A stretch of DNA of 64,000 nt from Myxococcales bacterium (lineage in GTDB: Bacteria; Myxococcota_A; UBA9042; JABWCM01): assembly GCA_013360285.1 (NCBI GenBank), contig JABWCM010000004.1:1-64000 (forward strand), given 5' to 3'. Both the position numbers and the translations under genes were made by a program. Positions 2,558-38,385 of the stretch are shown here, one piece after another. Below the pieces are notes generated by a model. It did not search any database. It saw only the letters and a list, made by a program, of their open reading frames with translations, and was not told the origin of the DNA. Each line of letters starts with the position of its first letter. Position 1 is the first letter of the stretch.

Positions 2558-5500
2558 ATGGAAAATCCTGTCCAGACCATGAATTGTATAGTGCCTATCA
2601 AGTCGCCAAGGTGGCCTCTTGCTGCCTTTTCACTATGGGTCGGGCTTCTTCTAATTGCCGTCGGAATACCTAAGCAAAGCTTTGCAGGGCAATGCCTTAG
2701 CCCGGTAGGTGATGTCAACGGCAACGGTGCAACCAATATCGTTGACGTTCAATGTCTTATATTAGCATCGTTGTGGTCCTTAAATAATCAGGAAGGGTCG
2801 CCACCGGATTGTATTGCCGGAACACCGGACACCGCCGACGTCAACTGTGATTTCCAGTTGTCTGTGGTCGACGTTCAAGTGCTTGTCAATCTTGCACTCG
2901 GGTCACCGTTATCACCGCAAATCGACGGCGACACCGACGGTTGCCCCGACGCCTGCACCGCTGTATGTGGAGATGGGGTGTGCGAGTTCTTTGAACAGTG
3001 TGCTACGTGTCAATCAGACTGTGGATCGTGCACGGGATCCTGTTGCTCCGCCCATCCGTCGATAGGGTGCGACAGCGACGGGTGTACGGCTTGTGTTGTC
3101 AATATCAATGATGGTTGTGCCACCTCCAACTGGTCAGGAATTTGCTCGGCCATCGCGTTTGAAGACTGCGCCGACTTCTGTGCTTGTGCATTGGTACCCA
3201 GCAACCCTCCGCCGGGTGTTTTGCCCGAAGAAAGCAAAGGAAGTGCCGTTGCAATTACCGCCGATGATTTGTTTTTGCTCATGGTCAATACCGATGACGG
3301 GTCCATTTCCGTGATCGATGGCCAAGACTATACGTTGCTGCGCACCATTTCGGTTGGGGGAAGCCATTTTGAACCGACCCAATTGGTCATTGGCAGCGAC
3401 GACCGAACTGTTTATGTGACCAACAAAGCACACGGTTCGGTGACCCGCATCACCGATTTTGATCAGGATAATCCGCAGGTGGACCCTCCGCTTGCCACGG
3501 GCAGTGAACCGGTAGGGCTTGCTTTGACCCCTACCGGCGCGACCCTGTATGTTGCCAACTCGGTAGACGGGACTATTACGCTAATCGATACAGCCACTTG
3601 GCAGATAGCCGGGGTCATTGATACCCCAGGCGTCCCCTGGGCCATTGCGGTCACCAACGACTTGGACACCGATGACAGCGACGAAACCGTTTTTGTTACC
3701 CGGTTTTGGTCGGTTCCATCGGAGATAGTTGACGAAACCTTTACACCCCAGTCGTCCGGCGAAGGCACCGACTTTGGTCGTAAGGGGCTTGTCTATTATT
3801 TCGGAACGGGTGCCACGGAAGTGGAGGGCACCATTGACTTGTTGCCGATCCAAAACGTGGGTTTTGATGATCCGTCCACCAAAAAACTTCCCCAAGGCTG
3901 TTTCCCCAATCAGTTGTCGTCCATCGCATTACGTAAGGGACGTGGGTACGTGGTGCACACCTGCGCCGGTCCGCGTGGCCCGGTCCAGTTCAACGTCAAC
4001 ATGCAGGGTGCGGTTTCGGTGTTCGAAATCGACTCCAAACAAGAACTGCCCGACAAAGGCGGCACCGTCAACTTAAACGCGCTGGTGAAAAATCAGTCCG
4101 CGGAAAACGGCGGGCGGCAGTTTATCAATCAGCCGACCGATATCGCGTTTATCCCCAACAAAACCATTGCTTATGTAACCGCAGGCGGCAGCAATCTTAT
4201 TTTGCGCGTCAATTTTGCGACAACCAAAGGCAAAGTCGAAGTGGGCTCGGCCTTCAACTTCCATGTGCCCGTGGGCGGATTTCCGCAAGGAACGGCTGTT
4301 TCTCATGACGGCAAACGGTTTTTTTCCGCCAACTTGATCGGTCGGTCATTGTCTGCGGTTGTGGTTGCAACCCAATCGGTTGTTGCCACAACTCAGTCCA
4401 CACCGCTACCGCTCGACGGCACGGACGAACATACGATTTGGAACGGAAAACGGTTTTTTAACACGTCCACCAAACGGTGGTCTAAAGAATCGTGGGGGAG
4501 TTGCGTCTCGTGCCACCCAGGAGGTTTAAGCGACAACGTCACCTGGCATTTTGCCGCCGGGCCGAGGCAGTCGACTTCGCTGGACGGCAGTTTTTCCAAA
4601 ACCAATCCGGCCGACCAGAGAATCTTTAACTGGACCGCGATTTTTGACGAAGTGGCCGATTTTGAAGCCAATACGCGGGGTGTCTCCGGCGGCAAAGGGG
4701 CGATTACCGATGCGAACGACAACGTAATTCCGCTCAATGCCGCCATTGTGAACGGAGTCGCGCAGAACCACCAACAGCTCAATGGTTCTGCGGAGTTTCT
4801 TGTGGATCATCTGGCAAGCTTAAATGACTGGAATGAAATCAAACGTTACATGCAAACCATTCGGGCTCCACGAGGTGCAACCAATCAGGATCCGGACATG
4901 GTAGCAATGGGGCGCCTGTATTTTGAGTTGTTTGGGTGTACCAACTGCCATAGCGGCCCCAAATGGACCATATCGACCCGGTATTTTACGCCGTCGTTGG
5001 CCCAAAACGATGCCCTCAAAACCATGGCGGTCAACGCATCCAGCCTGCCTTCTGGGTTAAATACCGAGACGATTCAACTCGGTGCCGAAGTGGCAAATGG
5101 ACAGACCATTGCGCCACCTCGATTGGGTTGTGCCATACGCAACGTTGGAACTTTTGGAGATGCCGCGGTGGAAGTAAAAGCCGACATGGTGTCCAAAGCA
5201 CAGGGGCAAAACGGTTATAACATTCCGTCGCTGCTTGGGTTGGCCTACGGAGCCCCTTATTTGCATCATGGTGGTGCCGAAACCTTAAAGGACCTCTTTT
5301 CGTCGGCTTATGCCGACCACCATCAAGCCTACGCACCGGGTTTGTTTGACGCCGTAGATACCAATGTGGACGAAGCTATGTCCCGCGACGCCTTGATCGC
5401 CTTTTTGTTGACGATTGACGAAACCACTGAACCGTTTCCTATTCCCGCAGGCGCCAATATTTGCCCGGATCTCGGGGAACCGCCGCCTGCGATCTTACCA

Positions 5501-10150: not shown

Positions 10151-12925
10151 TCAACCCCGATGAATAAAGTGGGCGCCGGGGAACGGGGCGGAACCTTTGC
10201 CAAGAGCGACCAGCACAACGTTTGCAGCACACACCTTGTATTCGGCGGTGCCGGTGACCGGGTCGCCGACATCGGTCGTCAGCAAGTTGGCGCGGGCTTC
10301 GGCAAAATGAAACGGCATCCAGATGCTGCCCAATTGCACCTGATGAGACACTGTGGCAATACATTCGACGGACCCGCGCCGAGTAAACACACGTACCCAA
10401 TCCCCCGTTGTGATATTTCGCACCGTTGCGTCGTCGGGGTGGATTTCGATAAACGCTTCGGGTTGTTTTTCGGCCAGTTCCTCTGCCCGCCGAGTTTGAG
10501 TCGCAGCATTATAATGATACAACGTGCGACCGGTTGACAACACGAGTGGGAAGTCGTTGTCGGCATGTTCCGCGGAAGGACGGTAGTCGACTGCGACGAA
10601 TTTACCTTTGCCGCGCAGCACCCCGTCGCGGTGCAAAAAGGTTGTTCCAGGATGGTCCGAAGTGGGGCACGGCCACTGTAATCCCCCTTCCTCATCGAGG
10701 CGGATGTGGCTGATACCACGAAACTTTTCGGTATCTTGCGCCATTTCCGCATAAATGTCGCCGGCCGAATTATACGACCAATCGGCACCACAAAGACGGG
10801 CCAGCGCCACCAGAATTTCCCAGTCCGCCCGGGCTTCACCGGGCGGCGACACGGCCTTTCGGACCCGTTGGACACGGCGTTCTGAATTGGTGAACACACC
10901 CTCTTTTTCGGCAAAACATGCGGCAGGAAACACGACGTCAGCATACCGGAAGGTTTCGTTTGGAAAAATCTCCTGAACAATGACCACTTCCAGGTTTTTC
11001 ATTCTTTCTTCAAGCTCGGCGACATTGGGCTCAGACAACACAATGTCTTCTCCCATCACGAAAAGACCTTTGATCTTACTGCCGATCTTTTTCATCATTT
11101 CGTTTAAGTTAAGACCCTGGGTCGAAGGCAAAGGCACGCCCCACGACTGTTCGTATCGGGCTCGGGTCTGCGGGTCATCTGCCCGTTGGTACCCGGGGTA
11201 AAACACCGGGGTCGCTCCCGCATCGTTGGCGCCTTGGACGTTGTTCTGGCCACGCAAAGGATTCATGCCGGCCGACGGTTTACCCAAATGGCCGGTCATC
11301 AAAACAAGGTTCGACAACGCGTAAACATTGTCGGTTCCGTGAGAATGCTCAGTGATTCCAAGGGTGTAATAGATCCCTGCTTTGGGGGTGGTTGCGTAAA
11401 GGCGGGCGGTCCACCGGATGTCTTCCGCAGAAATTCCCGTCACGTTTTCCGCTTCTTCGGGGGTGTACGCCAACACGGTTTCCAAAACCCGATCAAAACC
11501 TTCGGTTTGCCCGTTGATAAATGACTCATCACACAGGCCTTCGGTGACAATCACGTTCGCCATGGCGTTGAGCAGCCAAACGTCGGTGCCGGGTTTGAGC
11601 TGCAAATGCCGGGTTGCGTGGTCCGCAAGCCAAATTTTACGGGGATCCGCCACAACAAGGGTAGCTCCTCGGCGCATCGCCCGTTTCATCTCCATCGCGA
11701 TGACCGGGTGGGCTTCGGTGGTGTTGCTGCCGATGACGAACAAAAAGTCGGCGTTTCGGATTTCGCCGATGCTGTTGGTCATAGCTCCGGCTCCAAACGT
11801 TGTGACCAGACCGGCCACGGTGGGAGCGTGTCACGTCGCTGCGCATTGATGTACGTTGTTCGTAAAAAACACCGCCCGCGATAACTTTTGCACCAGGTAG
11901 TTTTCTTCCACGGTGCATCGGGACGACGACACAAATCCCAGCGCATCGGCGCCGTGTTTGTCCCGAACCTCCATCAGTCGTTTGGCGGCGGTGGTCAACG
12001 CTTCCTCCCAAGTCGCGGGATGAAGCAGGCCATCCGTGCGGCGGACCAATGGGGTTGTCAAACGTTCTGGATGGTCGATGAATTGATAAGCAAATCGACC
12101 TTTTACGCACAAATTGCCGTCGTTGGTCGTCGATCCGGGCGGTGGGGCGGTGATCTGTACCACTTTGCCGCGCCCGTGGTTGGCCTTTTTGTCTACATGG
12201 AGGTCCAACTGGCAACCCACGCCGCAGTAGTTGCACGTTGTACGGACTTTTTCCAGTTGGGACCGAGGGGGAGCGTCCATCCGGGTCGGGAGAACCGCCG
12301 CCATGGCGCCCGTGGGACAGATGTCGACGCAGCCGCCGCATAACTCACAATCCGTATCCCTTAACTGATGGTGGTCGACCGTCGCGATGGTGGTTTCTGG
12401 GCCACGATAAGCCAAAGTAATCGCGCTGGCAGCTTCGATTTCCTCGCAATAACGGGTGCACTTGGCACACAAAATACATTTGTCGGCTGAAAAAGTCAGA
12501 AACCGGTTGTCGTCGGTATCCCGACCCGTGCGTAACGGTTCCACGTGTTGCCAGTGTGTCGGTGCATGGTACACGTCAGCGAGGGCGTGTAGCTCACAGG
12601 GACTGTGGCGTTCACATTGGGTACGGTCACTTGGGTGATCGGTAAGATAAAGGCCCAAGAGTGTTTGACGGTGTTTGTTGACCTTTTCTGATTTGGAGCG
12701 GACGACCATCCCCGGTGTGGCAGGTGTGGCACATGACGGAACCATCCGCCTTTGCCCTTCGACCTCCACCAGACACAATCGGCAAGCCCCGGCGGGTTCA
12801 AGGCGTGGGTCGTGACACAACGCGGGAATATCCACACCTTGCCGTTGAGCGACATCCAAAAGGGTGTCACCAGGGTAGACGTCTACGAGGCGCCCATCCA
12901 AAGTCACACATGCTTTTTCAGTCAT
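10151..12925 (-). CDS. fdhA: NAD-dependent formate dehydrogenase alpha subunit, selenocysteine-containing; in-frame UGA at 11831..11833
   Basis: ORFs 11831..12994 and 10151..11818 are in the same frame, joined by TGA: NNVHQCAAT-U-HAPTVAGLVTTFGAGAMTNS, matching the FDH catalytic Sec site; N-terminal [2Fe-2S] and 2x[4Fe-4S] ferredoxin domains. Confidence 0.95.
11802..11833 (-). promoter_or_regulatory. Bacterial SECIS hairpin in fdhA
   Basis: UGA followed at +13 by GTGGCC-GGTCT-GGTCAC; loop GGUCU at +19..+23, comparable to E. coli fdhF. Confidence 0.9.
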
Positions 12926-25354: not shown

Positions 25355-26614
25355 TCAGTTGTAGTTTTGTGAGAGCGATTTGTACCGTTGACTTTGATAT
25401 TTGCGTTTGCTGTTGGATTTTTGTGTTGTCCAAAACACGAGTCCACCGGCAAACGAGTCTGCCGAGACCAAATGCCGTGTTAAGGCCACTTGCCCGAGTG
25501 TGCGGGTCGTATTGGTCCAGGGGTTCCACGCTTTCACTCGATTGCCATGGACCAGCACAAACCCGTCTGCATCTCGGCGGACACGCAACGTTTGAAACGC
25601 TCCGGACCGCGCCTTAATCGACCACACACGGCCATCGTGAAACACGACCGCTGTATCGGCATCTGCTGCGACTAAGTTACCATCCGGCGTGTACCAAATC
25701 GAATGTGCACTTTTGACCCATTGAATTCGTTTTCGGGGAGTTTCGCCCCGAACCAGCCATGTATGGGCTTGGGTTGCGTAGGTAAACTCGGAGCCATTTG
25801 GCGCCATTTCGGCGTTCACGACGGGGCCATCGCTAAATTTGCCTAGGGCTGATGGCGGAACGTGGGGTGAGTCGGTGCTCATTTCTAAGATAAGACCCTG
25901 TCCGGTATGGGGTTCTGGTGCGGTAAACATGACAATACGACCGGTATTTGCCGCCGTTGTGATCCGTGTTAGTGGGTGTTCCGGCAGCGCGACATGAGCC
26001 AATGCCGTGCCTTGAAGGTCCACTACGTCGATAACCGATGTTCCATCTGCGGTACGTCGGTCCAACACAGCGATTCCGAAGGCGTTCCACTCAAGCCACA
26101 TCGGGGAATCGTAAGTGGCCAGCTTTTGCGAAAATGGTTTACGAAGCGAAAAAATCCATAGTTCGGAGTTGGCGAGCACTGCCAACCAATTTGAATCTGG
26201 AGAGAATCGAAAATCGCCGAGATTACCGGAAGTGAGGGTTTGCTCATTTCCGGACTCATCCCGCAATCGAAGCAACGTACCTCCGTGGGGCAGCAGGTCG
26301 TTTTCGTCGGGAAGCGGAAGGTGGATTCGCTCTTCCGGCGGAATGACATACACTAGGAACCGAGCATCAGGAGACACTTGGATGGCTCGCTGTGAGTACC
26401 CGGAAGTCGTTGGCAAGATCGGCCCCGATCGCGACACCAGTTGATTTGTTTTTGTGGTGTGAGAAGAAACGACGATTTCGTCGGTATTGGTTTGTATGGG
26501 CGGACCCGCCCAATCAATCCGACCTCAGGCATGCGCGACGCGAGTGGGAAAGGTTAGGGCCAACAGCGGCGTCAGTATCAAGGTGATGAGAATGGTTTGG
26601 TGAATCGTTTTCAT
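25355..26614 (-). CDS. Secreted beta-propeller-like (WD40/PD40-like) protein with in-frame UGA immediately after signal peptide; candidate selenoprotein (or nonsense-mutated gene)
   Basis: MKTIHQTILITLILTPLLALTFPTRVAHA-UGA(26525..26527)-GRIDWAGPPIQTNTDEIVVSS... continues in frame into the listed 360-aa ORF. Confidence 0.6.
26497..26527 (-). promoter_or_regulatory. Candidate bacterial SECIS element
   Basis: UGA then at +13 TGGGCG-GGTC-CGCCCA: perfect 6-bp stem, GGUC loop at +19..+22, the same position as in fdhA. Confidence 0.6.
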
Positions 26615-26663: not shown

Positions 26664-26828
26664 AGAGGGTCAGCGGAAATAGATAAGTGAACCCTGTTCG
26701 GCTAATTTAGGCTGCCTTGTCCAGTCCCGTCCTTGTGGAATATTCCCGATATTCCTCAGTCCGGTCCCGGCCAATTCAGCGCTAAATTAGCTCGACCAGG
26801 GTCACTCCCTTATTTCCGCTGACCCTCA
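26664..26828. repeat. Family B fold-back element
   Basis: gagggtcagcggaaata...ggaatattcccgatattcc...tatttccgctgaccctc. Confidence 0.9.
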
Positions 26829-37431: not shown

Positions 37432-38244
37432 ATGAATGTGGTGTTGCTTGCTGAACGCGCGGAATTCCCAGACCCAGTGCTCTCCTGCCGAAAACGGATA
37501 GAGCGGCGTATTGGTGGATTTGTCGAAGCAGGGGCACACAACGCCGTCGTGCTTGAAGAGCTTTCGCGTGTTTCAAGCGATGTGGCAGTCAGTGTGTTGG
37601 ACTCGTTCCATCGAGATCCGGACTTACCTGAGGCGCGAAGCGCGTTGTTGGCATATACGCGGATTATTCTGGAACCGGATCGGGGATTTTCTTACTACAT
37701 TGCCGGAAGATGGTACCGAAAGGCGGTGGAGAGCGGTTACATAAGCGTGGCTATGGCGTTGTTGTCGATTCCACCGCACCGCGTTCGAGGCCCAAGCGAT
37801 GAGTTGCCGTCGGATCCGTTGTTGTCGGAATTGGAATTGGGTTGGCGGAAAACCAAGGCCCGCGGAACGGATCGGGGCTTGTTGCTCCGGCTTTTGTCTG
37901 ATCCGACCATTGAAGTCATCAGGATTCTTTTGCAAAATCCAAAAATCGTTGAGGCGGATGTCATTCGGGCTGCCGCAAAACGACCCATCGGCGCAGACGT
38001 CTTGACTCTTATTGCTACACATTCGAGGTGGATGAGTTCGAAGGCGGTGCGTAAGACTATTGTGCTTAATCCCTACACGCCAACGAATATCTCTGTTCTG
38101 TTGGCGCCGCTTCTACCTACCCCTGACCTGAAATCGATTGCGGTTGATGGAAACCTGCATCCCGTTTTGCAGCGTGTCGCTGCCTACCTGGCAAGTGTTC
38201 GCCATGGCCAGAGTCTGAGAGGGTCAGCGGAAATAGATGACTGA
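37432..38244 (+). CDS. Hypothetical helical-repeat protein; last codons lie in family B repeat
   Basis: Open frame after VWA gene; C-terminus RGSAEIDD encoded by agagggtcagcggaaatagatgac. Confidence 0.6.
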   Translation: MNVVLLAERAEFPDPVLSCRKRIERRIGGFVEAGAHNAVVLEELSRVSSDVAVSVLDSFHRDPDLPEARSALLAYTRIILEPDRGFSYYIAGRWYRKAVESGYISVAMALLSIPPHRVRGPSDELPSDPLLSELELGWRKTKARGTDRGLLLRLLSDPTIEVIRILLQNPKIVEADVIRAAAKRPIGADVLTLIATHSRWMSSKAVRKTIVLNPYTPTNISVLLAPLLPTPDLKSIAVDGNLHPVLQRVAAYLASVRHGQSLRGSAEIDD

Positions 38245-38385
38245 CCCTGGATCGGCCGCTTTCGGCCGAATTGTCCAGTCCCGTCCCTGCGGAATATTCC
38301 CGATATTCCTCGGTCCAGTACCAGACAATCCGACTCAAAATCGGCTCGACCAGCGTCACTCCCTTATTTCCGCTGACCCTCTGAG
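38215..38385. repeat. Family B fold-back element (83-nt arms, 5-nt loop)
   Basis: ctgagagggtcagcgg...ggaatat-tcccg-atattcc...ccgctgaccctctgag. Confidence 0.92.

Follow-up and report, generated by a model that had tools for sequence, protein, structure and literature searches.

A gene with an in-frame UGA behind its signal peptide probably encodes a selenoprotein of an undescribed beta-propeller family in a Myxococcales bacterium

Results

A candidate selenoprotein gene behind an apparent stop codon

We analysed a stretch of 64,000 nucleotides (the window) from a Myxococcales bacterium and identified a gene that, judged from its reading frame and its homologues, most likely encodes a selenoprotein belonging to a family not described before, with selenocysteine (Sec) at or near the signal-peptide junction and a predicted beta-propeller behind it. 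Because distant relatives have UGA at the same site and a relative lacking SelB has Cys there, it is very probable that this gene, in spite of the stop that seems to break it right behind its export signal, is intact. The following features were assigned:

25355..26614, (-) strand: candidate selenoprotein gene, 419 residues, with UGA as Sec30 and a terminal TGA (from the frame and homologues)
26528..26614, (-) strand: signal peptide, 29 codons, with a possible signal peptidase I site, AHA, immediately before Sec
26525..26527, (-) strand: in-frame TGA, taken as the Sec codon (residue 30); TGA in the homologues L018, L040 and L041, TGC in L049
26497-26512, (-) strand: SECIS-like hairpin TGGGCG-GGTC-CGCCCA, loop at +19
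25421..26482, (-) strand: predicted beta-propeller with PD40/TolB-like blades, residues ~45-398 (AlphaFold2, Foldseek, TolB profile)
11831..11833, (-) strand: Sec codon of FdhA, the reference within the window, with a GGTCT loop at +19

An earlier note, made from the window alone, had described an ATG, a signal peptide, an in-frame TGA and an open frame of more than 380 codons, all of which we confirmed. The ATG at 26614 (-) is followed by MKTIHQTILITLILTPLLALTFPTRVAHA up to the TGA, and 389 sense codons run from there to the closing TGA at 25355-25357 (-). No clear Shine-Dalgarno sequence was found upstream of this ATG, a weakness that had already been conceded. The source of the window is a MAG of 430 contigs.

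The window also contains a family of imperfect palindromic, MITE-like elements of ~163 bp with the ends GAGGGTCAGCGGAAATA / TATTTCCGCTGACCCTC:

99-~260, 17605 (one end), 26665-26827, 38219-38381, 39098-~39260 and 59727-~59890: MITE-like copies

The copy at 26665-26827 is located 50 bp 5′ of the candidate ATG; it may contain the promoter of the gene or interfere with it.

Homologues have UGA or Cys in the same column

The family has five known members, and the window gene has no close relative among the genomes searched. A first search for relatives yielded no homologue among 52 other genomes of the class, a first contig scan using the window protein alone gave no match, and a tblastn search of plasmids gave none. 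Searches of ~650 genomes of the phylum resulted in four full-length homologues with 23-33% identity. The phylum sample contained one in genome G336 (L018; 28% identity, E 9e-16), in which the frame runs upstream through a TGA into MHMQRRLMALPLAVALAATTTFAYQRTGHT, a signal peptide. Searching with the G336 protein led to G570 (Polyangium sp. 6x1, L043) and G418, both with a TGA directly behind a signal-peptide-like stretch, and a profile of these four sequences led to G576, whose unbroken frame reads MQRRTMMGVLVGATAGLLLPRLGIA-C-GGHVGKV.

The TGA occupies the identical column in all four UGA genes, namely those of the window (RVAHA-U-G), G336 (L018; RTGHT-U-A), Polyangium sp. 6x1 (L040; RSGYA-U-G) and G418 (L041; RSAWP-U-A). 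The three UGA homologues show 28-33% identity and represent three further families within the phylum; those of G336 and G418 come from MAGs. The single Cys homologue found, L049 of G576, has TGC in this column (RLGIA-C-G). The earlier note had proposed Cys or UGA at this position as a test, and every full-length homologue found passes it, three with UGA and one with Cys. In the N-terminal part of the five proteins, only the Sec/Cys column and an Arg at -5 from it are invariant. Sec is the sole Cys/Sec residue in the window, G336 and G418 proteins. Polyangium sp. 6x1 is a cultured isolate with its UGA copy on contig cov_23.8, which makes a read error less likely.

We excluded L019-L022 (16-17 bits, partial) and L042 as short partial propeller matches, and G370 and G279 (profile E 1e-12 to 1e-15) as S9-type peptidases with an N-terminal propeller that are not members. 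The next-best profile matches after the five are other propeller proteins, e.g. S9 peptidases. No conserved operon was found: the neighbours differ across the Polyangium, G336, G418 and G576 loci, those in Polyangium being fatty-acid-hydroxylase-like and LMF-like when judged by eye.

In G418, a start codon of the gene is not apparent, and its 5′ part could have been lost by truncation or wrongly assembled. The G418 contig (L045) has a fragment of a GGDEF gene at 3420-3929, in antisense orientation and directly bordering the propeller gene on its 5′ side. Both genes look truncated where they meet, which, from the sequence, suggests a rearrangement or an assembly chimera. The ORF of L018 begins with an ATG two codons past the TGA and that of L043 with a GTG. 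Calling the first start after a stop would therefore drop the signal peptide from both, and the resulting leaderless calls may be hidden in databases.

A hairpin follows the UGA codons

The perfect TGGGCG-GGTC-CGCCCA stem-loop described previously was recovered, with TGGGCGGGTCCGCCCA as the window hairpin and the GGTC loop beginning 19 nt past the TGA, and the GGTCT loop that had been reported at the same distance in FdhA is likewise correct. We regarded a hairpin as comparable if it had a stem of at least 6 bp, a loop of 3-5 nt beginning with GG and a loop start at +17 to +24. Counting both strands, the window has 1781 TGA triplets, of which 14 (0.8%) are followed by such a hairpin; a GGTC loop at +19 in addition is found only for the candidate and FdhA. 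The window's genome has a single copy of the complete 16-mer, and a dispersed repeat was rejected on this ground. Rfam gave no match on the window. Because synonymous resampling matches the stability of the window hairpin in 69/2000 cases, the hairpin by itself is suggestive, not decisive; the corresponding counts were 512/2000 for G336, 213/2000 for Polyangium and 146/2000 for G418.

The loop begins at +19 in the window, at +22 in L018, which has one additional codon between TGA and hairpin, at +19 in L040 and at +20 in L041. All four stems have at least 5 bp, and all four loops have a G among their first two bases. The Cys gene L049 has no G-loop hairpin of at least 5 bp in the range of +18 to +23, so that the conservation of the hairpin, another test that had been suggested, holds for the UGA genes and not for the Cys gene. 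In the UGA genes, 7-11% of codon positions are followed by such a hairpin, and the chance of finding them in 4/4 is ~1e-4; the range was picked after the FdhA and window hairpins were known. At the stability observed, the background is 0.5% of codon positions in the window gene, 4.3% in L018, 3.3% in L040 and 0.6% in L041. Taken singly, only the hairpins of the window gene and G418 are strong; those of the GC-rich G336 and Polyangium genes are within reach of synonymous codon choice.

Published bSECIS rules (PMC13188914, Fig. 2) specify a loop of 3-9 nt, a stem of 4-16 bp, a G in the first two loop bases, a spacing of 16-37 nt and an MFE of -7.5 or lower. The window gene, L018 and L041 pass them with the hairpin at +19 to +22; the +19 hairpin of L040 alone reaches -6.7 kcal/mol, and a different hairpin within range satisfies the rules. 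In the GC-rich genes they discriminate weakly, as 66-84% of positions pass there too. The E. coli-type bulged U 5′ of the upper stem, the lack of which had been raised as a caveat, is indeed absent from the candidate stem. Because the FdhA stem of the same genome, in its minimum-energy fold, is also unbulged, this absence is no argument against Sec.

SelB is present in all UGA genomes

The window's genome contains a tRNA-Sec with a UCA anticodon and a full-length SelB above the family cut-off. The selB/selC check that had been recommended is thereby answered, and the machinery expected for a bacterial selenoprotein is in place as regards tRNA-Sec and SelB. SelB was above the cut-off in 4/4 UGA genomes (G000, that of the window, G336, G418 and G570); in the Cys genome G576 it was below the cut-off, with other elongation-factor-like matches only. 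Against a background of 136/318 genomes of the class with SelB (43%), this pattern on its own would arise by chance in a few percent of cases; it agrees with the Sec reading and does not depend on the alignment. In Polyangium sp. 6x1, SelB is present, yet the best FdhA (L078) has Cys for Sec, so other selenoproteins, the candidate homologue among them, may maintain SelB there.

Position of Sec and export

A signal peptidase I site before Sec/Cys is plausible in the window (AHA), Polyangium (GYA) and G576 (GIA) proteins, less plausible in G336 (GHT) and poor in G418 (AWP). Because the junction is plausible in three members and weaker in two, Sec as residue 1 of the mature protein appears likely but is not settled. 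Most likely, Sec lies at, or a few residues past, the signal-peptide junction, the exact cleavage site being inferred. The signal peptides of L018, L040 and L049 contain QRR, which, on this motif only, suggests Tat export of the G336, Polyangium and G576 proteins. The window protein lacks a twin-arginine motif and would thus use Sec translocation. The conserved Arg of the c-region resembles a Sec-avoidance charge, which is an inference.

The earlier note had placed Sec either at mature residue 1, which stands with the above reservation, or at a lipobox-like position, which does not. In the latter case, Sec would be lipidated in place of Cys and the product would be a selenolipoprotein. Sec is indeed the only Cys/Sec residue in three members and lies at the junction, as in lipoproteins, but the lipobox [LVI][ASTVI][GAS]C is not met by A-H-A-U, G-H-T-U, G-Y-A-U, A-W-P-U or G-I-A-C: Leu, Val or Ile at -3 is found in 0/5 proteins, and the invariant Arg at -5 is unfit for a lipobox. 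We consider a selenolipoprotein improbable.

Other readings of the TGA

If the TGA were a true stop, the signal peptide would be a separate leader ORF and a cytoplasmic propeller would be made from a downstream start. Each gene does have such a start (GTG 26437 in the window, ATG in L018, GTG in L043 and GTG in L045), but their positions differ between genes, signal peptide and propeller are in frame in every genome and alignable across the TGA, and the Cys homologue is one continuous protein comprising both. This leaves a true stop with little support.

A nonsense mutation or sequencing error, implying a recent pseudogene or damage in the assembly only, had been left open by the earlier note, and the fragmented MAG, the repeat element close upstream of the ATG and the missing strong Shine-Dalgarno sequence would be compatible with it. 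It is refuted in practice by the homologues: three of them, at 28-33% identity and including one from a cultured isolate, share the TGA column, the one from a SelB-less genome has Cys there, and frames are otherwise intact throughout. Independent hits at one of ~390 positions are not credible, and we judge this explanation very unlikely. Sequence alone does not distinguish Sec from a regulatory decoding of the UGA as another amino acid, be it by programmed read-through or with near-cognate Trp, but such decoding is the least tenable reading given that the SelB-less genome has Cys, neither Trp nor a random residue, and that SelB accompanies all UGA genes, with hairpins at SelB spacing.

A predicted beta-propeller and its possible function

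AlphaFold2, run with the window protein and three homologues, predicted a beta-propeller (pLDDT 76.5, pTM 0.77). The first ~42 residues, including Sec30, were of low confidence and are predicted to form a flexible tail before the propeller. Foldseek matched many propellers, the family profile matched TolB chains with E 9e-15, and one member passed the PD40 cut-off, all of which supports the propeller-like fold suspected before. NCBIfam contained no fitting family; TIGR02800 (TolB) reached 16.7 bits at best versus a cut-off of 343.

Because Sec has no Cys partner, a conserved intramolecular selenylsulfide of the CxxU type is excluded. The function can only be inferred; a periplasmic or extracellular single-selenol centre is most likely, serving as a one-Cys-type redox/peroxidase residue or as a metal ligand. 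As a redox centre, the single Sec would have an external thiol as partner; as a ligand, the selenolate, perhaps together with the free alpha-amine, would bind a metal at the propeller face. The two cannot be told apart from sequence. We tentatively propose, as a possibility that the data do not yet favour, that export itself exposes a mature N-terminal Sec, placing a selenol and a free amine on an otherwise thiol-free beta-propeller, which would be a novel kind of extracytoplasmic selenium active site or metal hook.

Discussion

We have documented a conserved UGA, an exchange between Sec and Cys, hairpins and the presence of tRNA-Sec and SelB at the level of genome sequences. Insertion of Sec in the cell is inferred only, with neither protein evidence nor expression data. 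By the standard bacterial route, the ribosome would translate the signal peptide and reach the UGA at codon 30, where SelB/tRNA-Sec, recruited by the hairpin centred ~20 nt downstream, would insert Sec, and translation would proceed past the UGA into the beta-propeller. Export and removal of the signal peptide would leave Sec at or near the new N-terminus, on a flexible tail before the propeller.

Like the bacterial SelB-decoded selenoproteins FdhA and fdhF, the candidate has a UGA with a G-rich-loop hairpin ~19-22 nt downstream, a genome encoding tRNA-Sec and SelB, and a Cys homologue where SelB is absent. Unlike them, it has Sec at the signal-peptide junction, a beta-propeller and no partner Cys. 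The repeated PD40-like blades and the predicted propeller fold are shared with TolB and PD40/WD40-like propellers, but the score is far under the TolB family cut-off, and TolB is not known to have a conserved N-terminal Cys or Sec. FDH-N is a Tat-exported selenoprotein. The TonB-dependent receptor of the FCYXU type is a secreted/outer-membrane selenoprotein (PMC12013277). Both resemble the candidate in having Sec in an exported protein; their Sec is part of a CxxU motif or of a molybdenum site within the fold, whereas that of the candidate would be at the mature N-terminus.

Table 1 of a May 2026 review (PMC13188914) comprises 119 prokaryotic selenoprotein families/subfamilies, none of which is a propeller, and the family is not among the nine new ones of deep-Sep (PMC12013277). 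We found no published description in the open-licence literature, so an unindexed one is not excluded.

If the selenoprotein reading is true, selenium would occur in a fold and at a position unrecorded for any prokaryotic selenoprotein family. Because the UGA severs the signal peptide, such genes would be missed or misannotated as leaderless. The family would be hidden from catalogues that rest on thioredoxin-like folds and CxxU/UxxC motifs and would be a test case for selenoprotein finders, and with Polyangium sp. 6x1 available in culture, it is open to direct experiment.
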